23,296 nt of DNA from IMG/VR virus record IMGVR_UViG_3300025120_000577, positions 1 through 23,296 of that record; one strand, 5' to 3'. Position numbers and translations under genes: made by a program. Below are positions 266 through 18,057 of the stretch, in pieces (the stretch's first letter is position 1; each line of letters begins with the position of its first letter). The notes below the pieces were generated by a model that was not told where the DNA came from, ran no database searches, and worked only from the letters and a program-made list of their open reading frames with translations. This DNA comes from a virus.

Positions 266-742
266 ATGAACTTGAGTCGTAACTTCACTTTATTAGAACT
301 TATCAAATCAGATACAGCTGTTAGGAAGGGTATCAATAATAATCCTAATGCAGGACAAATAGAAAAATTAAAAGATTTATGTGAAAATATTTTGCAACCA
401 GTACGAGACCATTTTGGTAGAGTTAAAGTGACCAGCGGGTTCCGTTCAGAAGACCTTTGCCTTGCTATAGGATCAAGTCGGGACAGCCAGCATGCAAAAG
501 CTGAAGCCGTTGACTTCGAATGTATTGGAGTTGACAATGCTGAAGTTGCTGATTGGGTTAAAAAGAACCTTGAAACGGATCAGCTGATACTCGAATACTA
601 CACGCCCGGAGAACCCAACAGCGGGTGGATCCACGCAAGTTGGATTGCTGAAAATAAAAGAGCACAATATCTTCTTGCTTATAGACAAGAAGGTAAAACT
701 AAATATAAACCAATACTAGGTAAAGCAAAGGATATATTATAA
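266..742 (+). CDS. M15 family peptidase (endolysin-type, peptidoglycan hydrolase)
   Basis: The 158-aa protein has the layout of the peptidase M15_3 family (zinc D-Ala-D-Ala carboxypeptidase or L-Ala-D-Glu endopeptidase fold). SGFRS lies at 57-61, SQH-x6-D gives candidate zinc ligands H76 and D83, and WIHASW at 121-126 gives the third ligand H123. E110 in the LILEY strand is a candidate catalytic base. The usual Gly of SxHxxGxAxD is Ala here (A79). The N-terminal helix (FTLLELIKSDTA) is typical of phage M15 enzymes. It would cut the stem peptide of peptidoglycan, either for lysis or as a virion-associated lysin. There is no signal peptide and no holin is recognisable nearby, so release would need a holin encoded elsewhere. 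AGGAG at 258-262 precedes the ATG by only 3 nt. Confidence 0.92.
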   Translation: MNLSRNFTLLELIKSDTAVRKGINNNPNAGQIEKLKDLCENILQPVRDHFGRVKVTSGFRSEDLCLAIGSSRDSQHAKAEAVDFECIGVDNAEVADWVKKNLETDQLILEYYTPGEPNSGWIHASWIAENKRAQYLLAYRQEGKTKYKPILGKAKDIL

Positions 743-873
743 TGGCTATAGGACGAGGACAAATGACTGCTCAAATAGATGGTAAGCTTAGAGGTGCAAG
801 AGGTGAAAAAAAGAAAAAAACTCAATTTAAAAAGAAAACAAAAAGTTTAAAGTTATTTAAAAAAAAGATTTAA
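742..873 (+). CDS. Very basic 43-aa protein, unknown
   Basis: The ATG at 742 overlaps the endolysin stop (TAATG) and the frame runs to TAA at 871-873. The product has 13 Lys and 3 Arg in 43 residues, with runs EKKKK and FKKK. The N-terminal half is less charged (MAIGRGQMTAQIDGK). Coupled start, short spacing to the next gene (1 nt) and the absence of any better frame support it as a gene. A basic peptide of this kind could bind nucleic acid, but nothing in the sequence proves that. It is distinct from the second 43-aa basic protein at 15914-16045. Confidence 0.7.
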   Translation: MAIGRGQMTAQIDGKLRGARGEKKKKTQFKKKTKSLKLFKKKI

Positions 874-874
874 A

Positions 875-1393
875 GTGAAACCCACAATAATCAAAGAAAA
901 CTTCTTTGAAAACCCTGATGAAATTGTTGGACTTACAAATAAAATAAAATGGATACCTCCAGGGCCTACTGCAGACTGGCCTGGAGTAAGATCAAAAAAT
1001 TTATGCGATATACTACCTAACTTAAATAATTATATTATAAGTAAAATTCTTAAATTATATTATGGACGAGATAATATAAATGTTTCAGATACAATAATTC
1101 AGTTTCATAAGATTAAATTATCTGATTACGAAAACCATAATAAAAAAAATACTAGATTTCATAAAGATTACACAGACATTGCAGGTTTAATATATTTGAC
1201 CAAAGGTATAAATGATGAAAATATTGGAACTTCAATTTTAGACGATGAAGGTAATTTAGGTGTTAAAATATCTAACGTCTATAATACTTTAGTATGTTAT
1301 GATGGTAATAAATCACATGGTGCTACTGGTCTAAATGATATAGAAAGATTAACTATTGTAATTTTTTTAAAGCACGTAAATGAAAAAAACTAA
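875..1393 (+). CDS. 2OG-Fe(II) oxygenase-like protein (DUF6445-like)
   Basis: The 172-aa protein starts at GTG, one base after the previous stop; no ATG lies near. Its C-terminal half has the jelly-roll signature of 2-oxoglutarate/Fe(II) oxygenases: FHKDYTD gives iron ligands H96 and D98, SHGATG gives H148, and R158 (ERLTIVIF) is the expected 2-oxoglutarate-binding Arg. The stretch DIAGLIYLTKG followed by GTS resembles the DUF6445 family, which I recall beside tryptophan-halogenase genes in bacteria. It overlaps the halogenase gene by 14 nt, so the two are almost certainly co-translated and probably share a pathway. The full HxD...H...R set suggests an active enzyme; the substrate is unknown. 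The region is very AT-rich compared with the structural genes. Confidence 0.75.
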   Translation: MKPTIIKENFFENPDEIVGLTNKIKWIPPGPTADWPGVRSKNLCDILPNLNNYIISKILKLYYGRDNINVSDTIIQFHKIKLSDYENHNKKNTRFHKDYTDIAGLIYLTKGINDENIGTSILDDEGNLGVKISNVYNTLVCYDGNKSHGATGLNDIERLTIVIFLKHVNEKN

Positions 1394-2528
1394 AATAACT
1401 ATTGTTGGAAGAGGTAATGCAGGATGTTTTACTGCTTTACATTACGGTTACTATCTTAGAAAAAATAAAGAAATCGAAATTGAATTAGTTTATGATCCTA
1501 ATACTCCTACTGAATTTGTAGGCCAAGGAACTCAACTAGAAGCTACAGACTTGATGAGTAAGGCATTAGACATATGCCAATACCACAACCAGCCTAAAGC
1601 CACTTTAAAACTTGGAATACTTTACGAGGGTTTCGGTAAAGTAAATGAAAAAATTTTTCATCCTTTTACGTACAATACTACTTCAGTTCATTACGAACCC
1701 CATAAGGTACAGGATGCAATTTTAAAATCAAATTTGTTTTCTATAAAAAAACAAGACATAAAAGATATTTCTAATATAGATTCCACATGGGTTTTTGATT
1801 GTAGAGGAAAAAAAATAAATAATTATGAAGAATATGATGTGCTTGATAGTCCAGTAAATGCTGTTTTGTTAGTTAGAGTAAACCATAGAGATTTAAATCA
1901 AAACTGGACAAGATCAGTAGCCACTCCCAACGGATGGACTTTTATTATTCCAAATGTTGAGGGAACTACTTCCTATGGATATTTATTTAATAAAAATTTA
2001 ACTACTAAAGAGGAAGCTATAAATAATTTTAATCAAACTTTTAAACTTGAAGAAAACAAAGTAAACCTAGAAGAAATAAAATACCAAGAATTTAAAAATT
2101 ACATTAAAAAAGAAATGATAAAAGATAATGTTATTTTTTCTGGTAACAGATTATTTTTTCTAGAACCACTTGAAGCAACTGCAGTTCAAGCTTATCTTTA
2201 TTGGGCTAGATGTGCTTACGATCATATGTTTTTTAAAAAATCAAAAGAAGAAACACATAGAAGATATAAACAGTATACTTTAGAACTACAAAATTTTATT
2301 AATTGGCATTACATAACTGGATCTAAATTTGAAACACCCTTCTGGAAAGAGAGCTCTAAATATAAAATAGAAGATCCTGTATTTTTTGATTATTTAAAAA
2401 GATCTAGAGAAAAATCTTACATGGATTTAAAAGATCTAGACGACCCATTAAATACACAAGTAAGGTATGGACAATGGAATTCTATTAATTTTAAAAATTG
2501 GGACGAAGGTGTTAATAAAAAAAGATAA
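1380..2528 (+). CDS. Flavin-dependent tryptophan-halogenase-like protein
   Basis: The 382-aa protein begins with a Rossmann FAD-binding motif (ITIVGRGNAG, glycines G10, G12, G15), followed by VGQGTQLEAT at 47-55. K77 in ATLKLGI sits almost exactly where the catalytic Lys (K79 in PrnA and RebH) lies in tryptophan halogenases. FLEPLEATAVQ at 260-270 matches the FVEPLESTGI motif carrying the catalytic Glu. GWTFIIP at 185-191 corresponds to the WxWxIP motif, with Phe replacing the second Trp. INWHYITGS followed by TPFW at 307-322 matches the family's C-terminal HY...FW stretch. At 382 aa it is shorter than the usual 500-540, as expected for a compact viral form. A flavin halogenase (VirX1) has been described from a cyanophage, so a phage enzyme is plausible. 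Such enzymes need FADH2 from a reductase, which is not seen here. Substrate and halide are unknown. Confidence 0.87.
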   Translation: MKKTKITIVGRGNAGCFTALHYGYYLRKNKEIEIELVYDPNTPTEFVGQGTQLEATDLMSKALDICQYHNQPKATLKLGILYEGFGKVNEKIFHPFTYNTTSVHYEPHKVQDAILKSNLFSIKKQDIKDISNIDSTWVFDCRGKKINNYEEYDVLDSPVNAVLLVRVNHRDLNQNWTRSVATPNGWTFIIPNVEGTTSYGYLFNKNLTTKEEAINNFNQTFKLEENKVNLEEIKYQEFKNYIKKEMIKDNVIFSGNRLFFLEPLEATAVQAYLYWARCAYDHMFFKKSKEETHRRYKQYTLELQNFINWHYITGSKFETPFWKESSKYKIEDPVFFDYLKRSREKSYMDLKDLDDPLNTQVRYGQWNSINFKNWDEGVNKKR

Positions 2529-3027
2529 TTTTTTATCTCAATCACACGCAGAAACTATTTATAATTTTGCATACAATTCTAGTTATAAAATAGGTTGGGA
2601 AGACTCTCCCGATTTGAGTGCAAGACAATACCCAAGTCTTCATAGTATTGTTAGTTTAAAAGATTTAAGTGATTTAGGATTAATAAAAGCACTTCTAGAC
2701 TTTACTGCTCAAACAAAATTTAACATTTTTAAACAATCTAATTTTACAAAAGCTGTAATTAATTTATCTAAACCATCAGATGTTCATTACACCCACACAC
2801 ACTCAAATGCCCTAGTAGCTCTTTATTACATTAACTTATCCTGGAAGGATGAATATGCAGGAGAAACTTTGTTTTACTCTAATGAAGATGAAGTAATATA
2901 CACTAGTAAATATAAACCAAGAAAACTTGTATGTTTTGACGGAGCTATTCCTCATGCATTAAGACCACAATCTATCATAGGACCTAATTATAGGTTTACA
3001 TTATCCATGTTCTTTAAAAAAGAGTAA
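2509..3027 (+). CDS. 2OG-Fe(II) oxygenase-like protein with unusual HxH motif
   Basis: The frame could open at ATG 2467, but that would overlap the halogenase by 62 nt. GTG 2509 gives a 20-nt overlap and a typical start (IKKDNFLS) for this prolyl-4-hydroxylase-like group, so I chose it (172 aa). Numbered from GTG: VHYTHTHSN holds H93, H96 and H98; WAGETLFY-like residues follow (AGETLFYS); FDGAIPH gives distal H149; R152 and R162 (NYRFTLSMFF) are candidate 2-oxoglutarate ligands. The canonical H-x-D/E is H-T-H here, so the iron site may lack its carboxylate, or the ligand may be another residue. I recall related phage proteins with HxHP-like sequences, so this may be a family trait. It closes the halogenase island; the next gene begins 34 nt later with its own strong RBS. 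Confidence 0.75.
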   Translation: MLIKKDNFLSQSHAETIYNFAYNSSYKIGWEDSPDLSARQYPSLHSIVSLKDLSDLGLIKALLDFTAQTKFNIFKQSNFTKAVINLSKPSDVHYTHTHSNALVALYYINLSWKDEYAGETLFYSNEDEVIYTSKYKPRKLVCFDGAIPHALRPQSIIGPNYRFTLSMFFKKE

Positions 3028-3041
3028 ATTAATGGTACAAT
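3013..3041 (+). promoter_or_regulatory. Candidate sigma70-like promoter before the connector genes
   Basis: TTTAAA at 3013-3018 is separated by 17 bases from TACAAT at 3036-3041. AAGGAG (3050-3055) and ATG 3062 follow, leaving a short leader. It would restart transcription of the structural operon after the halogenase island. In such AT-rich DNA a match of this quality arises often by chance, so confidence is low. Confidence 0.25.
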
Positions 3042-3061
3042 AATGGACTAAGGAGATTTAA

Positions 3062-3757
3062 ATGGCAACATCAGGAACAACTAGTTTTAACCTAAATATT
3101 GATGAAGTAATTGATGAAGGCTACGAAAGATGTGGTCTGTCAACTAACTCTGGTTATGATTTACGTTCTGCTAGAAGAAGTTTAGATCTTTTATTTGCAG
3201 AATGGGGTAATAGAGGTATCCATCTTTGGAAGGTAGCTCTTCATGAAGCCTCTCTAGTTAGTGGACAAGCAGAATATTCTGTTGCAGCTGATGTTAATGA
3301 TGTTTTAGAAGCTTTTGTATCTTCGACTGCAGCAGGTGCAAATAGCATTAACACTCAAGATGTATCTCTAACTAAAATAGATAGATCAGCTTATGCAGCT
3401 TTACCAAATAAATTAGCACTTGGACAACCTTCGCAATATTATGTTGAAAGATTAACAACACCTAAAATTTATTTATATCAAGCACCTGATTTAAACACTT
3501 ACACGACATTGAAATATTATGTTATAAAAAGAATTGAAGATGCTGGTGCTTATACAAATGATGCTGATGTTGCTTATAGATTTTTGCCATGCATGTGCGC
3601 GGGCTTAGCATATTATTTATCTATGAAAAAAGCACCACAATTACTACAACAAAATAAATTAGTTTATGAGGATGAATTGAAAAGAGCGTTAGATGAAGAT
3701 GGTCAAAGAACATCTACATACATCACTCCACAATCTTTTTATCCTAACGGAATATAA
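3062..3757 (+). CDS. Head-tail adaptor / neck protein (P22 gp4 or T7 gp11-like)
   Basis: The 231-aa protein has the layout of podovirus adaptor or tail-tubular-A proteins. A helical N-terminus (IDEVIDEGYERCGL, then DLRSARRSLDLLFAEW) is followed by a beta-rich middle (VSGQAEYSV; PSQYYVERL; PKIYLYQAPD) and a C-terminal helical part (AYRFLPCMCAGLAYYLSMKKAP, split by family convention, then LKRALDEDGQRTS). These proteins form a ring under the portal that joins head and tail. AAGGAG at 3050-3055, 6 nt before the ATG, is one of the best RBSs in the window. It is followed 2 nt later by the next structural gene. The assignment rests on remembered sequence patterns; a tail terminator is a less likely alternative. 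Confidence 0.75.
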   Translation: MATSGTTSFNLNIDEVIDEGYERCGLSTNSGYDLRSARRSLDLLFAEWGNRGIHLWKVALHEASLVSGQAEYSVAADVNDVLEAFVSSTAAGANSINTQDVSLTKIDRSAYAALPNKLALGQPSQYYVERLTTPKIYLYQAPDLNTYTTLKYYVIKRIEDAGAYTNDADVAYRFLPCMCAGLAYYLSMKKAPQLLQQNKLVYEDELKRALDEDGQRTSTYITPQSFYPNGI

Positions 3758-3759
3758 TT

Positions 3760-4200
3760 ATGGCAAAATGGGCTACAGGAAAAAGATCGCAATCAATATC
3801 TGACAGATCAGGAATGGCTTTTCCATACAATGAAATGGTTAAAGAATGGAATGGTTCTTTAGTTCATTACTCTGAGTTTGAACCCAAACATCCTCAGATA
3901 AGAAGAAAATATAATGTGGCTGATGCTATAGCTTTACAAAATTCAAGAAATATGAAATTTCAACAACCAAATCAAAAATTCACAAATGACCAAACAATTT
4001 CTGATTCTGGTGGAACAATGGTGGGAGTTGCAAATTTAACTTTACCAGGTGACTTTGCATTTAGAACACAAGATTTTACAATAACAAATTATGGAGCTAC
4101 TTCTACTATGCATAGTATGATACCCGAGAATGGTTCAGAACAAAACAGAAGAAGACAATTAGATGTAACACCAGGAAAAGTAGAGGTGAATATTACATAA
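3760..4200 (+). CDS. Conserved phage structural-module protein, unknown function
   Basis: The 146-aa protein starts with a basic, Ser-rich N-terminus (AKWATGKRSQSISDRSG), followed by WNGSLVHYSEFEPKHPQ and a Gln/Asn-rich part (NSRNMKFQQPNQKF). No membrane segment or catalytic motif is visible. It sits between the two connector genes, with 2 nt before it and a 1-nt TAATG overlap after it, so it probably belongs to the neck or a virion accessory. I recall similar proteins at this position in uncultured marine phages but no function. Confidence 0.75.
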   Translation: MAKWATGKRSQSISDRSGMAFPYNEMVKEWNGSLVHYSEFEPKHPQIRRKYNVADAIALQNSRNMKFQQPNQKFTNDQTISDSGGTMVGVANLTLPGDFAFRTQDFTITNYGATSTMHSMIPENGSEQNRRRQLDVTPGKVEVNIT

Positions 4201-4862
4201 TGTCTATATCACATGCTAATTTTTTAACACAAGTAAGAAACTATACTGAAGTAGATAGTAATGTTTTATCAGATACTATTATTCAAGATTTTATAAGATC
4301 GGTAGAATTAGATATTGCAGGTAAGGTAGATTATGATGATTTAAGAAAGTATGCTACTTCAAGTTTTACAGCAAACAATAGGTATGTATCTATACCATCA
4401 GATTCTTTGATACTAAGATCAGTTCAAGTTATCGATGGCTCTGGTAATAGAACTTTTTTAGAAAAAAGAGAAACAAGTTTTATATCAGAATTTAATGGGA
4501 CAGGAGCAACAGGTACTCCAAAATATTATGCAAACTGGGATGATTTTAATATATTAGTTGCGCCAGTTCCTGCTTCAGCTTTGCAGCTACAAATAAATTA
4601 CATAAAAGATCCACCAAATTTTACTTCTACAAATCAAACATTTATAGCCAGTTATCAAGAATCGATGTTGCTGCATGGTGTTCTAACGGAAGCTTTTAGA
4701 TTTTTAAAAGGTCCTATGGATATGTACAACCTGTATGAAAAGAAGTATAATGAAGAGGTACAGAATTTTGCTCTACAACAAATGGGCAGAAGAAGACGAG
4801 CGGAGTATGATGATGGAGTGCCAAGAGTACAAATTCCTTCACCACCTCCAAATATTAATTAA
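4200..4862 (+). CDS. Connector/adaptor-like structural protein (phage SU10 adaptor-type)
   Basis: The 220-aa protein begins with a helical part (LSDTIIQDFIRSVELDIAGK), has a beta-rich core (LILRSVQVIDGSGNRTFLEK; ATGTPKYYANWDDFNILVAP; LQLQINYIKDPP) and ends in helices (MLLHGVLTEAFRFLKGPMDM, then YEKKYNEEVQNFALQQMGRR) with a basic, proline-rich tail. This arrangement resembles the adaptor described for the short-tailed phage phiSU10 and other neck proteins that bind the portal. Its start overlaps the previous stop by one base. The exact place in the neck cannot be given from sequence alone. Confidence 0.68.
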   Translation: MSISHANFLTQVRNYTEVDSNVLSDTIIQDFIRSVELDIAGKVDYDDLRKYATSSFTANNRYVSIPSDSLILRSVQVIDGSGNRTFLEKRETSFISEFNGTGATGTPKYYANWDDFNILVAPVPASALQLQINYIKDPPNFTSTNQTFIASYQESMLLHGVLTEAFRFLKGPMDMYNLYEKKYNEEVQNFALQQMGRRRRAEYDDGVPRVQIPSPPPNIN

Positions 4863-4876
4863 TAAGGAGAAAAATT

Positions 4877-5344
4877 ATGGCAATAACAACTAACGCAATT
4901 TGTAATACGTTTAAAAAACAATTACTAGCAGGCGAACACGATTTTGATAGTTCTGGTGGAGATACATACAAATTAGCAATGTACACTAGCTCAGCGACTT
5001 TAGGTAAATCAACAGCTAACTATTCTACTAACCCTGGTGGTGGATCTAATACTGAAGTAGCAAACACAGGTACTTATGCAGCAGGTGGCGGAACACTAGT
5101 TAACCAAGGAGTTAAAGTGTCCTCATCAATAGCAATTACTGATTTTGCTGACTTATCATTTACTGGAGTTACTCTTACTGCAAGAGGAGCATTGATATAC
5201 AATACAACAACTGATGGTGGTTCAAACACTACGGAAGCAGTTGCTGTTTTAGATTTTGGTGGAGACAAGACTGCAACATCTGGAACTTTTACAATTCAGT
5301 TCCCTGCATTCACAACTTCTGCTGCGATTTTAAGAATAGCTTAA
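4877..5344 (+). CDS. Beta-rich virion structural protein
   Basis: The 155-aa protein is rich in Gly, Ala, Ser and Thr and shows alternating beta-strand patterns (DTYKLAMYTSSATLG; FTGVTLTARGALIYN; AVAVLDFGGDKTATSGTFTI). Its opening, AITTNAICNTFKKQLLAGEH, is a type I recall from many marine phages, annotated only as structural or hypothetical. TAAGGAG at 4863-4869, 7 nt before the ATG, is a strong RBS and suggests high expression. It stands directly before the long fibre gene, so a decoration, tail or fibre-attachment role is possible. Confidence 0.75.
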   Translation: MAITTNAICNTFKKQLLAGEHDFDSSGGDTYKLAMYTSSATLGKSTANYSTNPGGGSNTEVANTGTYAAGGGTLVNQGVKVSSSIAITDFADLSFTGVTLTARGALIYNTTTDGGSNTTEAVAVLDFGGDKTATSGTFTIQFPAFTTSAAILRIA

Positions 5345-5360
5345 TTTATAAGGAGTTAAA

Positions 5361-7613
5361 ATGGCTTTGGTAATAAACGATAGAGTTAAAGAGACTACAG
5401 TTACAACTGGAACAGGTACATTAAGTCTTGCTGGTGCAGTATCAGGTTTTGAAACGTTTGTTGCCGCCATTGGTAATTCCAACACAACGTATTATGCTAT
5501 TACAGCTTCAAATGGAGATTTTGAGGTTGGCTTAGGAACAGTAACAGATGCAACACCTGACACTCTTGCAAGAACAACTATTATATCATCATCAAATTCT
5601 GATAGTGCGGTAAACTTTGCAGCAGGAACGAAAGAAGTATTTTGTACTCAACCTGCATCAAAATCAGTTATACTTGACGCTAGTGGAAACATTGTTGCAA
5701 ACAATGGAGTCAATTTAACAGCATTAAATGCAACTGCTCTTACAAGTGGTACTGTAAATAATGCTAGACTTCCAACTCCAATAAGTGACAAAGTTATTAA
5801 TGCATCTACTCCATTAACTGTTAAGGGTGATGGATCAAGTGCAGACGGACAAATAGTTCTTAATTGTAGTCAAAACTCTCACGGAGTAAAAATTAAAAGT
5901 CCAGCTCATTCTGCTAACGCAACTTGGGAATGGATTTTACCTGTTAACGATGGAACTTCAGGGCAAGTTTTAACTACAGATGGAAACTCAACTGCACAAT
6001 TGACTTGGACAAGTCCAGAGGTAGGAGACATCACTAATGTAATCGCAGGTACAAATTTATCAGGTGGTGGCACATCAGGTGATGTTACATTAAATTTAGC
6101 TGACGCTTCTACATCTGCTAAAGGAGCTGCATCATTTAGTTCAGATAACTTTGCTGCTAGTTCTGGCGCAATAACAATTAAAGATGCGGGAGTAGCCACA
6201 GCAGAAATTCAAGACGATGCAGTAACTCAAGCTAAGATAGCAGACGATGCAGTAGGTGCAGACCAACTTGCAGCAAACGCTGTAGTAACTGCTTCTATTG
6301 TAGATGCAAATGTGACTACTGCTAAAATTACTGATGCAAATGTTACGACTGCTAAAATAGCTGATGCTAATGTTACAACTGCCAAAGTAGCAAACGATGC
6401 AATCACTTTAGCAAAAATGGCTGCAGGAACAGATGGTAATATTATTTCTTATGACGCAAGCGGAAACCCAGTTGCAGTTGCAACAGGAAATTCAGGACAA
6501 GTTTTAACTTCAGCTGGAGCAGGAGCTCCTCCAACTTTTGAAACACCTACAGTTGGAGACATTACTAACGTAATTGCTGGTACAAACTTATCTGGCGGAG
6601 GTGCATCAGGTGATGTTACATTAAATTTAGCCGATGCCTCTACATCTGCCAAAGGAGCTGCCTCATTTAGCTCAGACAATTTTGCTGCTAGTTCTGGAGC
6701 AATAACAATTAAAAACGCTGGAGTAGCTACAGCAGAAATTCAAGACGATGCAGTAACGACTGCAAAAATAGCTGATGCTAATGTTACTACTGCTAAACTT
6801 GCAGATGGGAATATAACTGTTGCTAAAATGGCAGCGAACAGTATCGACAGCAGTCAATACGTTGACGGTTCAATAGACACAGCCCACATTGCAAATGATC
6901 AAATTACGAATGCCTTAATGGCAGACGATGCTATAGACGCAGCCCAAATTGCTGATAATGCTGTTACGTTAGCTGCAATGGCTCATGGTACAGACGGTAA
7001 TCTTATTACTTATGATGCTAACGGAGCTCCAGCTTATGTTACTACTGGTAACTCTGGTCAAGTTCTAACTTCTGCAGGTGCAGGAGCCCCACCAACTTTC
7101 CAAACTCCAACAGTTGGAGATATAACTTCTGTTGTAGCAGGGTCTGGTTTAACAGGTGGAGCTACTAGTGGAGCTGCTACATTAAACGTAGGAGCAGGTA
7201 CTGGTATTGATGTTGCAGCAGATGCAATTTCTGTAGATGTGTCTGACTTTATGGCTAATGGTTCAAACAACAGAATTGTTACTGCAACTGGTGCTGATGC
7301 ACAAAATGCAGAAGCTAATTTAACCTTTGATGGTTCTACTTTAGCTGTTAGTGGGGCTATCACTACTACTGGTAATATTACTACAGACCACGTTTTACCT
7401 ACAGCAAATGATACTTTTGATTTAGGTGCTGATGGCAATGTTTGGAGAAACGTTTACACTGGTGACTTACATTTAACTAATGAAGCTAAAGATGAAGGTA
7501 ACTCAGTTGATGGCACAAAAGGTAATTGGACTATTCAAGAAGGTGAAGAACATTTATTTATTTTAAATAATAAAAACGGTAAAAAATATAGATTTAAACT
7601 AGAAGAGATGTAA
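5361..7613 (+). CDS. Long tail fibre protein with tandem repeat modules
   Basis: The 750-aa protein has an N-terminal attachment domain (about 1-115; MALVINDRVKETTVTTG, then TTYYAITAS) of a type common in marine phage fibres. A shaft of short repeats follows (NVTTAKIADA type, 10-residue period), with three copies of a module beginning VGDIT at residues 221, 398 and 585. The last two are each preceded by an almost identical TGNSGQVLTSAGAGAPPTF linker. The final 80 residues form a tip domain (VYTGDLHL; VDG-x-KG-x-W; QEG) also found in the fibre encoded at 8752-9432. AAGGAG at 5350-5355 gives a strong RBS. As a host-recognition fibre it would be trimeric on the virion. No enzyme motif is seen in the tip. 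Confidence 0.88.
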   Translation: MALVINDRVKETTVTTGTGTLSLAGAVSGFETFVAAIGNSNTTYYAITASNGDFEVGLGTVTDATPDTLARTTIISSSNSDSAVNFAAGTKEVFCTQPASKSVILDASGNIVANNGVNLTALNATALTSGTVNNARLPTPISDKVINASTPLTVKGDGSSADGQIVLNCSQNSHGVKIKSPAHSANATWEWILPVNDGTSGQVLTTDGNSTAQLTWTSPEVGDITNVIAGTNLSGGGTSGDVTLNLADASTSAKGAASFSSDNFAASSGAITIKDAGVATAEIQDDAVTQAKIADDAVGADQLAANAVVTASIVDANVTTAKITDANVTTAKIADANVTTAKVANDAITLAKMAAGTDGNIISYDASGNPVAVATGNSGQVLTSAGAGAPPTFETPTVGDITNVIAGTNLSGGGASGDVTLNLADASTSAKGAASFSSDNFAASSGAITIKNAGVATAEIQDDAVTTAKIADANVTTAKLADGNITVAKMAANSIDSSQYVDGSIDTAHIANDQITNALMADDAIDAAQIADNAVTLAAMAHGTDGNLITYDANGAPAYVTTGNSGQVLTSAGAGAPPTFQTPTVGDITSVVAGSGLTGGATSGAATLNVGAGTGIDVAADAISVDVSDFMANGSNNRIVTATGADAQNAEANLTFDGSTLAVSGAITTTGNITTDHVLPTANDTFDLGADGNVWRNVYTGDLHLTNEAKDEGNSVDGTKGNWTIQEGEEHLFILNNKNGKKYRFKLEEM
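6021..6227 (+). repeat. Fibre module copy 1 (69 aa)
   Basis: It encodes residues 221-289 of the long fibre, from VGDITNV to DDAVT. It is identical to copy 2 (6552-6758) at 67 of 69 residues, although about 22 codons differ silently. Confidence 0.9.
6303..6392 (+). repeat. 30-bp tandem coding repeat, three units
   Basis: Three units of 30 bp (6303-6332, 6333-6362, 6363-6392) each encode a 10-residue DANVTTAKIA-type block of the fibre shaft. A further unit begins at 6774. The period and reading frame mark it as a protein repeat and not a CRISPR array. Confidence 0.85.
6483..6758 (+). repeat. Fibre module copy 2 with TGNSGQVLTS linker
   Basis: 6483-6551 encode the linker from TGNSGQ to ETPT, and 6552-6758 encode residues 398-466, offset by exactly 531 nt (177 residues) from copy 1. 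A third, more diverged copy has its linker at 7044-7112 and its VGDITSV start at 7113. Confidence 0.88.
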
Positions 7614-10648: not shown

Positions 10649-11389
10649 ATGAATGTAATTGAGTTCATATCTCATAGGGAATACGCTAGATCTAAACAGG
10701 AATTACCCATTCCAATAAGACTTAACGTACCCAAATGGTATAGAGACTTATCTAGTAAAATAAATGATCCTACAATAAAATCTTGTATGCCTTTTTTAGA
10801 TACCTTAACAACGGGTTATCTACTAAAAACACCTCAAGACTTATATCTTCATCACAATAAAGTTATGCCTGATGGCTCTAAAGGAACTTTTCATAGATGG
10901 GGTCTTAAGGGTAAAGAAATGTGGTGTGAGAATTTACAAATAAATTTAAACACTCATGAAAGAGATGCGCACAGTCCTCATCAATTAAGAGGGTCCCCAC
11001 AAGAAGAAAAAAATAAAAGACTACCCTTTTTAAAATTTTTAAATCCTTGGATAATTAAAACACCTCCTGGGTATGCATGTTTGTTTGTGCCACCATTAAA
11101 TAATGCTGATGATAGATTTTCAATAATACCTGGAATAGTAGACACAGATACATTTACTTCAGAAATTAATTTTCCATTTGTTGTTAATGGTGATAAATAT
11201 CCTGAATTAGAAACAAGAATTAAAAGAGGAACACCTTTCGTACAAGTAATACCGTTTAAAAAAGAAAATTGGGAAATGAAAATAATTGAAAGAAGTACAG
11301 AAGAATTAGGTGCTGTAAAATTATGGCACAGATTAGACTTGTGGCAAAGATATAAAACTAAATTTTGGAATAAAAAAAGATGGAGATAA
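10649..11389 (+). CDS. DUF6065-like protein
   Basis: The 246-aa protein has a motif series that matches, from memory, the DUF6065 family. These are PKWYRDL (28-34), IKSCMPFLDTLTTGY (43-57), KFLNPWIIKTPPGY (129-142) with CLFVPPLN (144-151), PGIVDTDTF (161-169), FPF (175-177) and GTPFVQVIPFKKENW (194-208). An aromatic, basic end (WHRLDLWQRYKTKFW) follows. The family has no known activity. The strongly conserved Pro-, Asp- and Trp-rich core suggests a compact enzyme or binding domain. It overlaps the next gene, a 2OG-Fe(II) oxygenase, by 10 nt, so the pair is probably co-translated and may act together. No RBS precedes it. It has no signal peptide or membrane segment. Confidence 0.72.
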   Translation: MNVIEFISHREYARSKQELPIPIRLNVPKWYRDLSSKINDPTIKSCMPFLDTLTTGYLLKTPQDLYLHHNKVMPDGSKGTFHRWGLKGKEMWCENLQINLNTHERDAHSPHQLRGSPQEEKNKRLPFLKFLNPWIIKTPPGYACLFVPPLNNADDRFSIIPGIVDTDTFTSEINFPFVVNGDKYPELETRIKRGTPFVQVIPFKKENWEMKIIERSTEELGAVKLWHRLDLWQRYKTKFWNKKRWR

Positions 11390-11955
11390 AAGATTACGTT
11401 CAAATAAATGATGCTGTGTTGCCATGGCCAGCTTTAAGTAGTTTATTAAAATACATAAATATCCAAAACTTTGAACAAGCAATTGTTGGTGGAGCAGAAA
11501 CAGAAAGAATTGATTTCAATATAAGAAATACATATACCAAACCTTTTAATAATTTATCAAACTCTATGTCCGAAGTTCATTGGTGTAATTTGTTACATAA
11601 ATATTTTAAATACTTTATTCAAAAATATAATAGAGATTTAAATTTATTACCAAGTTTGGTTAGTCCCGCAGAAATAAATGACATACAAATATTAAAATAT
11701 AACGTAGGAGGTTTTTACAGATACCATACCGATCACTTTCATAGTAATCCTAGAACATACAGTTGTATTTTGTTATTAAATGATGATTACGAAGGTGGTC
11801 ATTTAAATTTTATGAACACAAACGGTACTGGAGAATATAAGATAGATGTAAAACCAAATAGACTAATAATTTGGCCTAGTAGTTTTATGTTTCCTCATTG
11901 TGTAGTACCGGTAACTAAAGGAGTAAGGTATTCAATAGTATCATGGGCACTTTAA
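11380..11955 (+). CDS. 2OG-Fe(II) oxygenase (prolyl-4-hydroxylase-like)
   Basis: The 191-aa protein carries a full catalytic set. GFYRYHTDHFH gives iron ligands H116 and D118, CILLLNDDYEGGHLNF (129-144) is the typical strand-EGG-strand, FPHCVVPV gives H173, and R183 in GVRYSIVSW is the 2-oxoglutarate-binding Arg. This layout fits PKHD/P4H-type hydroxylases acting on peptides or small molecules. The N-terminal 95 residues are helical and variable. The ATG lies inside the end of the DUF6065-like gene, and its own end overlaps the next gene by 13 nt, so three proteins are translationally linked. It is probably an active dioxygenase; the substrate is unknown. Confidence 0.88.
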   Translation: MEIKDYVQINDAVLPWPALSSLLKYINIQNFEQAIVGGAETERIDFNIRNTYTKPFNNLSNSMSEVHWCNLLHKYFKYFIQKYNRDLNLLPSLVSPAEINDIQILKYNVGGFYRYHTDHFHSNPRTYSCILLLNDDYEGGHLNFMNTNGTGEYKIDVKPNRLIIWPSSFMFPHCVVPVTKGVRYSIVSWAL

Positions 11956-12575
11956 AGGATAGGGGATATAAGGTTGTAAAAAACTTTATTACACAAAAAG
12001 AAACAAATCTTATAAAAGAGTATTGTATCTTAAGACATAAAATAAATTTTGACGATACAAGGTTTAATGATTTTGCTCAAAATAATAATGGTGATACTTC
12101 TATTTACGCAGATCCTCTGACGGAAGCCTTAATGATTTCTAAAACAAAATTAATGGAGCAAGAGAGTGAATTGAAATTGTTTCCTACTTATTCTTTTTGG
12201 AGAATGTACACATACAATGCGGAATTAACACCACATAAAGATAGACAATCTTGTGAGATAAGTGTTACTGTTATGTTTGGATCTGATGGAACATCGTGGC
12301 CTTTCTTTGTTGAAGATAAACAAATTGATCTCGAACCGGGTGATGCAGTAATATACTTGGGGACAAAAGTTAAACATTGGAGAGAAACCTTTACGGGAGA
12401 TTGGCACGCTCAAGGTTTTTTACATTATGTTGACCAAGATGGTCCGTATGCTGATTGGAAGAGAGATAAAAGACCACAATTTGCTATAAGAAATGAATAC
12501 CTTGCAAAGCAAGAAATGTCTAATAAAAGAAAAACAGGTCAGTTTGATCAAATACCCATAAAGGAAAAAAAATGA
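11943..12575 (+). CDS. 2OG-Fe(II) oxygenase-like protein (second of island 2)
   Basis: The 210-aa protein has FWRMYTYNAELTPHKDR with iron ligands H98 and D100, EISVTVMFGSD (105-115), a strand ending in LEPGDAVIYLG (130-140) and KHWRE with distal H145. Downstream, GDWHAQGFLHYVD (152-164) replaces the usual R-x-S strand, so the normal 2-oxoglutarate Arg is absent; R147 is a candidate substitute. The C-terminal 40 residues are highly charged. Related proteins with the HYVDxDGPYADW ending are common in marine phages and in bacteria by my recollection. It overlaps its neighbours on both sides (13 and 4 nt). It is less similar to the other three oxygenase-like proteins than would be expected from a recent duplication. 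Confidence 0.8.
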   Translation: MGTLKDRGYKVVKNFITQKETNLIKEYCILRHKINFDDTRFNDFAQNNNGDTSIYADPLTEALMISKTKLMEQESELKLFPTYSFWRMYTYNAELTPHKDRQSCEISVTVMFGSDGTSWPFFVEDKQIDLEPGDAVIYLGTKVKHWRETFTGDWHAQGFLHYVDQDGPYADWKRDKRPQFAIRNEYLAKQEMSNKRKTGQFDQIPIKEKK

Positions 12576-12817
12576 AATTTAGAAGATTTCCCAAAGATGG
12601 ATCTGCAGACATAATCTTTGAGGAACATGAAAAGAATATTATATATAAAACAGGTAAGTTACATTTTACACCTGAAGCGTTAAAACATTTTGGCAACCAT
12701 TTAGTGCATATTGTGGCTGAATGGCACTTGGATTTTAACGATAAAATAAAAGGTATAACAACAACAGAAAATCAAGTTGTAGAAACAGAAAAATCTAAAG
12801 ATGACCCTAAGGTTTAA
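12572..12817 (+). CDS. Small protein of unknown function, 81 aa
   Basis: The ATG overlaps the previous stop (ATGA-type, 4 nt). The product has a beta-like first half (MKFRRFPKDGSADIIFEEHE, then IIYKTGKLHFTP), a helix with ALKHFGNHLVHIVAEWHLDF and an acidic, Lys/Glu-rich tail. I recall similar short proteins in uncultured marine phages next to the nozzle gene. No function can be given. The following 29 nt to the next gene hold a possible promoter. Confidence 0.7.
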   Translation: MKFRRFPKDGSADIIFEEHEKNIIYKTGKLHFTPEALKHFGNHLVHIVAEWHLDFNDKIKGITTTENQVVETEKSKDDPKV

Positions 12818-16045: not shown

Positions 16046-16239
16046 GCGATCTCGTGAAGATACCTGCAGAAGCAAAAGAGATTATCAAACACAAAAGAAC
16101 AGGACAAGTGTATGCTACTAAAGCTGATTTTGATGCTGATGTTGCTAATACCAATACTGATACTACTGTGGATGATTTCAGACAAGACCTCGAAATAAGG
16201 GTGACAAAAGTTTCTATGGGTGCTAAAACAAAAGAATAA
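16042..16239 (+). CDS. Small conserved phage protein, 65 aa
   Basis: It starts in an ATGA overlap and ends sharing one base with the next ATG (TAATG). The sequence has IPAEAKEIIKHKRTGQVYAT, then KADFDADVANTNTDTTVDDF, and ends in a basic strand (RVTKVSMGAKTKE). The KHKxTGxVYATxADF pattern is one I recall from other marine phage genomes. Function unknown. It is the last of a run of four small genes joined by 4-8-nt overlaps. Confidence 0.78.
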   Translation: MSDLVKIPAEAKEIIKHKRTGQVYATKADFDADVANTNTDTTVDDFRQDLEIRVTKVSMGAKTKE

Positions 16240-17168
16240 TGAAACCCCGTGGAGCCACCGAGCTGCAAATGGAAATGCTTTACAAGCATGTTCCAAAAGA
16301 ACTGCTTGATCAAGTACAAATATGTACTTCAATTCCAGGTAAGGTTCCTATAGATCCAACCAAATTAAATATTCTTTGGCAAAAAAATTCTTACGATCAA
16401 GCGAACCTTAGTCATTGGTTTGCTGAACAAAAAAACCATGAGCAATATGATTGGTATGTTTTTAACAGTCATTGGAATTATGAAAAATTTAGATATTTTT
16501 TTAATATCCCAACTGAAAAATGTGTGGTTATAAAAAATGGTACAAATAATTTTCCAAAAAGAAAAGTTTACAAAAAAGGTGATCCAATAAAAATACTACA
16601 TCACAACACTCCTTGGAGAGGTTTAAATGTTTTATTGGCTGCTATGCAATTAGTTAAAAATCCAAACATTACATTAGATGTCTATAGTTCCTCACAAGTT
16701 TATGGAGATGCTTTTTCGAATAAAAATGAAAAAGATTTTGAACCCATGTATGAACAAGCAAGACAACTACCTAATGTAAATTACATAGGATATAAACCAA
16801 ATGAATACATACTAGAACATATTACAGATTATGATTTATATGCTTACCCAAGTAATTTTGAAGAAACTTTTTGTGCTTCTGCGTTAGAAGCGTTAGCTGC
16901 TGGTGTTCATGTGATTACAAATAACTTTGGTGCATTATACGAAACTTGTTCTGAGTGGCCTGTTTATATTAATTACAATTCAGACAATGAAAGAATGGCA
17001 ATAGATACAGCTGCTGCTATTGAAGTTGCCGCAACATACTTACATGAATCATTCATACAAGAGCATCTTGAAGAGCAACAAAAATTTTACAAAAGATTTT
17101 ACAGTTGGAGTAAAAAAGGAATGGAGTGGGAAGGCTTTTTACGTGGAGCTTTGAGTGAAAGAAAATAA
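16239..17168 (+). CDS. Glycosyltransferase, GT-B fold (family 4-like)
   Basis: The 309-aa protein has the C-terminal nucleotide-sugar half of group 1 glycosyltransferases. IKILHHNTPWRGLNVLLAAM (117-136) includes R127 at the donor-phosphate site. NVNYIGYKPNEYI (179-191) and LYAYPSNFEETFCASALEAL (200-219) follow, the latter with the E-x7-E motif (E209 and E217), and then AAGVHVITNNFGA. The N-terminal half is short but keeps the acceptor-domain pattern (GATELQMEMLYKHVPKELLD; VFNSHWN; VVIKNGTN). It is cytoplasmic, with no membrane segment. It overlaps the second glycosyltransferase gene by 14 nt. Possible acceptors are virion proteins, DNA bases or host envelope precursors; the sequence does not discriminate. 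Confidence 0.88.
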   Translation: MKPRGATELQMEMLYKHVPKELLDQVQICTSIPGKVPIDPTKLNILWQKNSYDQANLSHWFAEQKNHEQYDWYVFNSHWNYEKFRYFFNIPTEKCVVIKNGTNNFPKRKVYKKGDPIKILHHNTPWRGLNVLLAAMQLVKNPNITLDVYSSSQVYGDAFSNKNEKDFEPMYEQARQLPNVNYIGYKPNEYILEHITDYDLYAYPSNFEETFCASALEALAAGVHVITNNFGALYETCSEWPVYINYNSDNERMAIDTAAAIEVAATYLHESFIQEHLEEQQKFYKRFYSWSKKGMEWEGFLRGALSERK

Positions 17169-18057
17169 AACATATATTAACGAAGACACTTACCAAACTT
17201 TAAAAGACGTTCAGGTTACACCATCAAATAATGAAAAAGTTGAACTCAATGAATACGAAAAACGTATTACACCAATATGGTTAAACAACACCGGACAACG
17301 GAAAAATAAAATATCTATATTTGTTGCTACACCTGTTCACAGTGATTGTTCAATACATTATGCGCAGGGTTTATTAGAATTACAAAAAATGTGTTTTGAA
17401 AAAAAAATAGAAATACAATTTCAATTGTTAAAATCATCATTAGTAACACAAGGAAGAAACTTATGTGTTTCCGGTTTTATAGAATCTGGAATGACCCACA
17501 TGTTGTTTGTTGATTCAGATATATTAATGAATGCAGAATCTATTTTTAAAATGATAGACAGGGATAAGGATGTTATTTCAATTCCGTACCCACTTAAAAC
17601 ATTTAATTGGGATAAAGCTTTTGATGCAATAAAAAAAGGTGATGTAAAGAAACCTTCTGATATTCATAAATGGACCAATAGTTATCCAATGAGAGTAAAA
17701 GACACTAACGATATTGTTGTTACAGAAGGTGTAATAGAAGTAACTCACAGTCCAACAGGATGTATGCTTATTAAAAAAGAAGTGTTTGATAAAATGATTA
17801 AACATTATCCTGACAAAGGAATAGTTCAAAAGACAGTCATTAATGGCGAGTATGTAAATAGACCTCATTTATGGAACTTTTTTGATTGTATTCATGATCC
17901 TGAAACTAAAACATATTTAGGTGAAGATTTTAGTTTTTGTAAATTATGGAAAGACATAGGTGGTAAGTGCTATGCTTTTATTGATGACCCAATTATGCAC
18001 ATCGGGGAGCATCAATATACAGGACGTTTTGCCGATGAGTTGATAATACCTGAGTAA
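17155..18057 (+). CDS. Glycosyltransferase, GT-A fold
   Basis: The 300-aa protein starts at GTG 17155, preceded by GTGGAG (17143-17148) at 6 nt; a TTG at 17151 is the only nearby alternative and is out of frame. ISIFVATPVHSDCSIHYAQG (53-72) opens the nucleotide-binding fold. LVTQGRNLCVSGFIESG (96-112) and MLFVDSDILM (116-125) follow, with the D120-S-D122 metal-binding motif. A late HIGEHQY is a plausible metal-ligand His region. The N-terminal 50 residues are a polar extension. It follows the GT-B enzyme with a 14-nt overlap, so they probably build the same glycan in sequence. Similar GT-A proteins occur in structural modules of marine phages. Confidence 0.85.
   Translation: MKENKTYINEDTYQTLKDVQVTPSNNEKVELNEYEKRITPIWLNNTGQRKNKISIFVATPVHSDCSIHYAQGLLELQKMCFEKKIEIQFQLLKSSLVTQGRNLCVSGFIESGMTHMLFVDSDILMNAESIFKMIDRDKDVISIPYPLKTFNWDKAFDAIKKGDVKKPSDIHKWTNSYPMRVKDTNDIVVTEGVIEVTHSPTGCMLIKKEVFDKMIKHYPDKGIVQKTVINGEYVNRPHLWNFFDCIHDPETKTYLGEDFSFCKLWKDIGGKCYAFIDDPIMHIGEHQYTGRFADELIIPE

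Follow-up and report, generated by a model that had tools for sequence, protein, structure and literature searches.

Why does a phage carry a gene for a flavin-dependent halogenase, and does the position of this gene between two oxygenase-like genes reflect a joint task? The question arises from a linear virus record of 23,296 bases, analyzed here over its whole length (the window). A preliminary description of this DNA placed three overlapping genes, here called ox1, hal and ox3, at positions 875 to 3027, and the open reading frames are present there. The trio and its borders are arranged as follows.

266 to 742, plus strand: M15 peptidase (endolysin-type; PF08291, E = 1.9e-17), left border of the cargo site
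875 to 1393, plus strand: ox1, 172-aa 2OG-Fe(II)-oxygenase-like protein, GTG start; H96, D98, H148, R158
1380 to 2528, plus strand: hal, predicted compact flavin-dependent halogenase of 382 aa, ATG start; PF04820 match (E = 1.2e-30) and AlphaFold model
2509 to 3027, plus strand: ox3, 172-aa protein with a predicted prolyl-hydroxylase fold, GTG start; H96-x-H98...H149...R162, from model and profiles
3062 to 3757, plus strand: tail adaptor, right border of the cargo site; 74.5% identity to HTVC023P gp54, with relatives annotated "tail adaptor"

The overlap between ox1 and hal is 14 nt, and that between hal and ox3 is 20 nt given a start of ox3 at the GTG at 2509. A program-made list of open reading frames has the start of ox3 at an ATG at 2467; the orthologous frames of two other contigs, L004 and L005, begin at the matching GTG. 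Both overlaps, as originally described, are repeated in L004 and L005 (-14 and -20). A further contig, L003, matches the window at 100% identity over its 6148 bases and is therefore not an independent example, but the same population. The three genes are intact, and values of dN/dS between 0.08 and 0.12 for hal and ox3 (about 0.08 for hal) and between 0.10 and 0.37 for ox1 indicate purifying selection. Between the endolysin gene and ox1, positions 742 to 873 hold a small, very lysine-rich open reading frame of 43 codons.

A search of marine contigs for the same gene order, proposed in the preliminary description, found the trio in the related phages L004 and L005. The trio proteins are 89 to 92% identical to those of L004 and 87 to 90% identical to those of L005, compared to 78.5% and 47%, respectively, for the endolysin and 82% and 77% for the adaptor; three genes past the adaptor, compared in L005 only, are 65, 73 and 78% identical. 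Because the trio is 87 to 92% identical while the flanking phage genes are 47 to 82% identical, the three genes move as a unit and have been exchanged in this form between related phages. The endolysin gene forms the left border, in the same order, in L004, L005, L174 and the Pelagibacter phage isolate HTVC023P (gp49). In HTVC023P, the stretch between the same two borders holds small genes only and no halogenase, and in L174 it is occupied by oxygenase-like, sulfotransferase-like and ox1 genes. These comparisons show a variable cargo site between the M15 endolysin and the tail adaptor, beside virion genes, of which the trio is one load.

HTVC023P and a second Pelagibacter phage isolate, HTVC027P, share gene order with the window phage, have structural proteins 51 to 75% identical to its own and also encode 2OG oxygenases; no halogenase match was reported in either isolate in the search for hal homologues. 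The window phage is probably an HTVC023P-type marine phage and, because these two isolates are its best matches, we infer that SAR11, an abundant ocean bacterium, is the likely host. A second island lies at 10649 to 12817, just upstream of a phrog_3287 structural gene. It includes a phrog_7084/DUF6065-like protein, a clear PF13640 2OG oxygenase (11380 to 11955; H116, D118, H173, R183) and a "ferrochelatase"-labelled protein with an HxD pattern (11943 to 12575), and HTVC023P has a similar island (gp65 to gp67). Two overlapping glycosyltransferase-like genes at 16239 to 18057 (a PF00534 match and a weak Anp1 match) are conserved with HTVC023P and HTVC027P.

The surroundings of related halogenases bear on whether the trio is more than a chance assembly. 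In 29 podovirus-type loci, 35 of the 57 immediate neighbors of the halogenase were of 2OG type, whereas the other 55 viral halogenase loci had 6 among 107, both counts including near-duplicate contigs. Farther out in the podovirus-type loci, more than four positions from hal, 2OG-type genes were also frequent (41/116), so the halogenase is better described as a member of oxygenase islands than as a unique attractor of such genes. Given how widespread 2OG-type genes are in these phages, adjacency of hal to an oxygenase gene is no proof of a shared substrate. Oxygenase-like runs reach nine consecutive genes (L014 and L020). In L020, positions 300 to 5999 hold about nine oxygenase-like genes in a row directly upstream of the halogenase, and a carbamoyltransferase-like frame lies at the edge of the locus. 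The flanks of related loci also gave three JmjC_2 matches, sulfotransferase matches and weak HalD matches. An oxygenase gene lies directly upstream of the halogenase gene in the Pelagibacter phage isolate HTVC008M and in the single-cell-derived marine virus AG-345-E15. The HTVC008M pair, whose oxygenase is of 2OG type, overlaps by 17 nt and resembles the arrangement in the window, but its halogenase is of the long form and the phage is T4-like.

One interpretation is that a hotspot has accumulated three unrelated cargo genes, with overlaps that come from compact phage genomes only and no joint pathway. Several observations fit this: ox1 occurs without hal or ox3 in L173 and L174 (in L174 at the same site), most ox3 loci have no hal inside the fetched stretch, partners differ between loci, and overlaps of 4 to 60 nt are usual between neighboring genes in these loci. 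Against it, distinct contigs share the whole trio with unchanged overlaps, the trio is more alike than any compared flank gene, and hal adjoins ox3 also in L010, L013 and L128, the last with a much more divergent hal. We regard chance stacking as conceivable but doubtful. We lean instead towards a three-gene cargo cassette of an HTVC023P-type phage, exchanged as a unit, in which a halogenase and two oxygenases probably act on the same or a related substrate.

Our results agree with the earlier claim that two oxygenase-like genes flank hal, although on different grounds for each. In ox1, an HxD...H...R pattern (H96, D98, H148, R158) is invariant in 10 homologues with 28 to 91% identity, and the protein matches phrog_1644 and phrog_274; it had no match in Pfam and nothing significant among PDB sequences. 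Its canonical 2OG/Fe site pattern places ox1, by sequence, in the 2OG-Fe(II) oxygenase superfamily. The label "DUF6445-like" had to be dropped: ox1 did not match PF20043 at E 0.1, and neither did anything in the whole window, in a search that also matched no control genome.

The ox3 protein fell below the cut-offs of PF13640 (E = 5e-4) and of the FlmC-like NCBIfam family NF052475 (2e-17) and, because a search of PDB sequences gave nothing significant, it was assigned by structure model. The model (pLDDT 91.7) aligned with PHD2 (VIA Z 17.3, 162 residues, 3.2 A) and with a bacterial P4H in complex with EF-Tu (Z 16.6). The predicted fold is a double-stranded beta-helix nearest to protein prolyl hydroxylases, a proximity that says little about substrate because Foldseek lists many PHD2 entries. 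The FlmC-like label was not adopted; the Lactobacillus FlmC paper concerns a biofilm protein that is apparently not an oxygenase.

The metal motif of ox3 is unusual. In 49 homologues the HxD/E motif is absent and HxH stands in its place, with H96, H98 and H149 invariant, and H98 aligns without gaps with D98 of ox1 (profile probability 88%, E = 3e-6). An HxN/HxG reading, a possible non-haem halogenase motif, was rejected on two grounds: across 55 sequences H96 and H98 never change, whereas position 100 does, and H98 falls in the Asp column of the profile alignment. A His-x-His...His pattern like that of ox3 is found in TIGR02466/PF13759 proteins (PDB 3bvc and 2rg4, both uncharacterized), a separate family that is common around related halogenases. 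In two distinct oxygenase-like families of these phages (ox3 at 2509 to 3027; L010 at 5408 to 6007), His-x-His replaces His-x-Asp and the distal His is kept; these families may bind a metal through three histidines on a fold of 2OG type. The PHROG labels "minor coat protein", "DNA endonuclease V" and "ferrochelatase" land on oxygenase-like proteins of the window (875 to 1393, 2509 to 3027 and 11943 to 12575) and are probably misleading names.

The fold of ox3 and the location of the site invite a more specific proposal, namely that the cassette modifies a virion or host protein, with hal acting on Trp or Tyr side chains and the oxygenases hydroxylating the same protein, thereby changing host binding or stability. 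The cargo site is part of the late structural region, in some T4-like relatives hal stands between the major head and tail tube genes without oxygenases, and the HTVC008M halogenase lies between terminase subunits; the nearest folds to ox3 and the three JmjC_2 matches point the same way. However, the late region is also a frequent home of cargo genes, fold similarity does not give the substrate, and no candidate substrate protein was identified. In this specific form we consider the proposal unlikely.

The assignment of hal itself draws on several kinds of evidence. Its PF04820 match scored 107.2 bits against a curated cut-off of 21, and it also matched PHROG 2928 (E = 1e-58). An AlphaFold model built on 37 viral homologues (mean pLDDT 89.8) retrieved flavin-dependent halogenases as all of its first 50 Foldseek matches in the PDB, and VIA-align gave Z scores of 37.0 for AbeH, 33.8 for RebH, 32.7 for PrnA and 27.8 for VirX1, the last three being the comparison that the preliminary description had called for. 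The residues named there (GRGNAG at residues 10 to 15, K77, E262 and E265) are all present. The main motifs of hal are located as follows.

1407 to 1424, plus strand: GRGNAG dinucleotide (FAD) motif, residues 10 to 15; G10, G12 and G15 invariant in 37 homologues
1608 to 1610, plus strand: predicted catalytic Lys77, equivalent to PrnA K79 by profile alignment; invariant in 37 homologues
1932 to 1952, plus strand: GWTFIIP (GWTWKIP in PrnA); W186 kept, F188 in place of the second Trp
2172 to 2174, plus strand: predicted catalytic Glu265, equivalent to PrnA E346 by profile alignment; invariant in 37 homologues

In the profile alignment, the E265 column takes the Asp of the PrnA E346D entry 2jkc. 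In hal, the GWxWxIP motif retains its first Trp, Ile and Pro, and both W186 and F188 are found in all 37 homologues. The preliminary description had made the assignment hang on whether the best structural match would be a non-halogenating flavin monooxygenase and whether K77 and E265 would misalign; the outcome favored a halogenase on both counts, and we predict that hal, with its PF04820 fold, is a compact flavin-dependent halogenase.

With PrnA and RebH, hal has in common the fold, the FAD motif and the aligned catalytic Lys and Glu, but it is about 120 to 150 residues shorter and about 20% identical. Its profile matches to PrnA skip from about residue 92 to 233, leaving PrnA residues 93 to 232 or so largely unmatched, and the column of PrnA E450, a tryptophan-binding residue, is not acidic (mostly N/S) in the 37 homologues, in a C-terminal region where the alignment is weak. 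For these reasons we name hal a flavin-dependent and not a tryptophan halogenase: "tryptophan-halogenase-like" is apt for the fold and catalytic residues, whereas a PrnA- or RebH-type enzyme for free tryptophan is unsupported. The same features weigh against the idea of an auxiliary metabolic pathway in which the cassette produces or modifies a small metabolite of the host (indole, tryptophan or a quinolone-like signal). This idea draws on the nearest solved structures, which are small-molecule halogenases, mostly for tryptophan; SAR11-type hosts are not known for metabolites of this kind, and we give it a low probability. That hal is a flavin monooxygenase of the halogenase fold that hydroxylates without halogenating, like QhpG, is very improbable. 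NCBIfam does give a weak QhpG match (E = 0.0015, far short of the cut-off), and GWxWxIP carries a Phe, but the 50 top structural matches are all halogenases and the halogenase Lys and Glu are strictly conserved.

Relatives of the compact halogenase are encoded by at least 410 viral contig stretches. In a quick, midpoint-rooted tree with long branches, which included the Syn1 and S-PM2 enzymes and left out VirX1 itself, the compact enzymes grouped apart from the long bacterial and cyanophage enzymes with 99% SH-aLRT support. A pattern-limited scan of 84,980 bacterial and archaeal genomes (species) found three homologues; L088 and L089 have viral-looking neighbors, and only L090, from a Poribacteria MAG (40% identity), has cellular-looking ones. 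The L090 homologue (6001 to 7095) has genes for an ABC transporter, a peptidase and a flagellin-like protein as neighbors. The compact clade thus appears to be nearly all viral, and a recent bacterial donor of hal is unsupported; an older transfer from bacteria is compatible with these data. The view of the trio as a complete tailoring pathway transferred from bacteria, put forward in the preliminary description, fares poorly given this clade, its single cellular-looking homologue and the free change of partners. Nor did we see the same pairing in bacterial clusters: in a small sample, the two bacterial plasmid halogenase loci inspected contained TonB receptors and lacked an oxygenase pair.

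Phage halogenases are already known. VirX1 of a cyanophage (PDB 6qgm; 531 residues in the entry compared to 382 for hal) is phage-borne and flavin-dependent, and we found no other phage halogenase whose structure has been solved. We know of no natural substrate for VirX1. The long cyanophage enzymes of Syn1 and S-PM2 lie across the 99%-supported branch from the compact clade. Compact cyanophage "tryptophan halogenases" (T4-like GC 212; Sf-CH8, S-ShM2) are of the same class as hal (359 to 390 aa, 35 to 44% identity) but, unlike hal, lie among structural or transaldolase genes without oxygenase neighbors. Cyanomyoviruses carry prnA (PMC3037559), and a halogenase was present in 20 of 153 cyanophages surveyed (PMC10452541). 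What is new here is a compact variant in an unusual oxygenase context; the literature searched, which under-covered subscription journals, yielded no description of a halogenase-oxygenase cassette.

Under the cassette reading, we infer halogenating activity for hal and a substrate common to its partners. By analogy with PrnA, reduced FAD and O2 would form a flavin hydroperoxide on hal. The reduced flavin would come from the host, as no flavin reductase (PF01613) was found in the 23-kb fragment. The hydroperoxide would oxidize chloride or bromide to hypohalous acid, which would reach Lys77 and, with Glu265, halogenate an electron-rich aromatic group. The ox1 and ox3 proteins, read from overlapping frames, would probably oxidize the same or a related substrate. 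As that substrate, we would favor a peptide, a protein or another large molecule over free tryptophan.

A small cassette that moves as a unit and has strictly conserved catalytic residues offers a testable system for the role of halogenases in phages. The recurrent runs of 2OG-type oxygenase genes suggest that many marine phages carry islands for oxidative tailoring that are hidden by current annotation names such as the three PHROG labels quoted above. We speculate, with little confidence, that exchangeable islands of marine phages, combining a compact halogenase with several prolyl-hydroxylase-fold oxygenases, some of them with a His-x-His metal site, add halogen and hydroxyl groups to a protein of the phage or its host in the course of infection. 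If true, this would be a so far unseen form of protein modification by phages.
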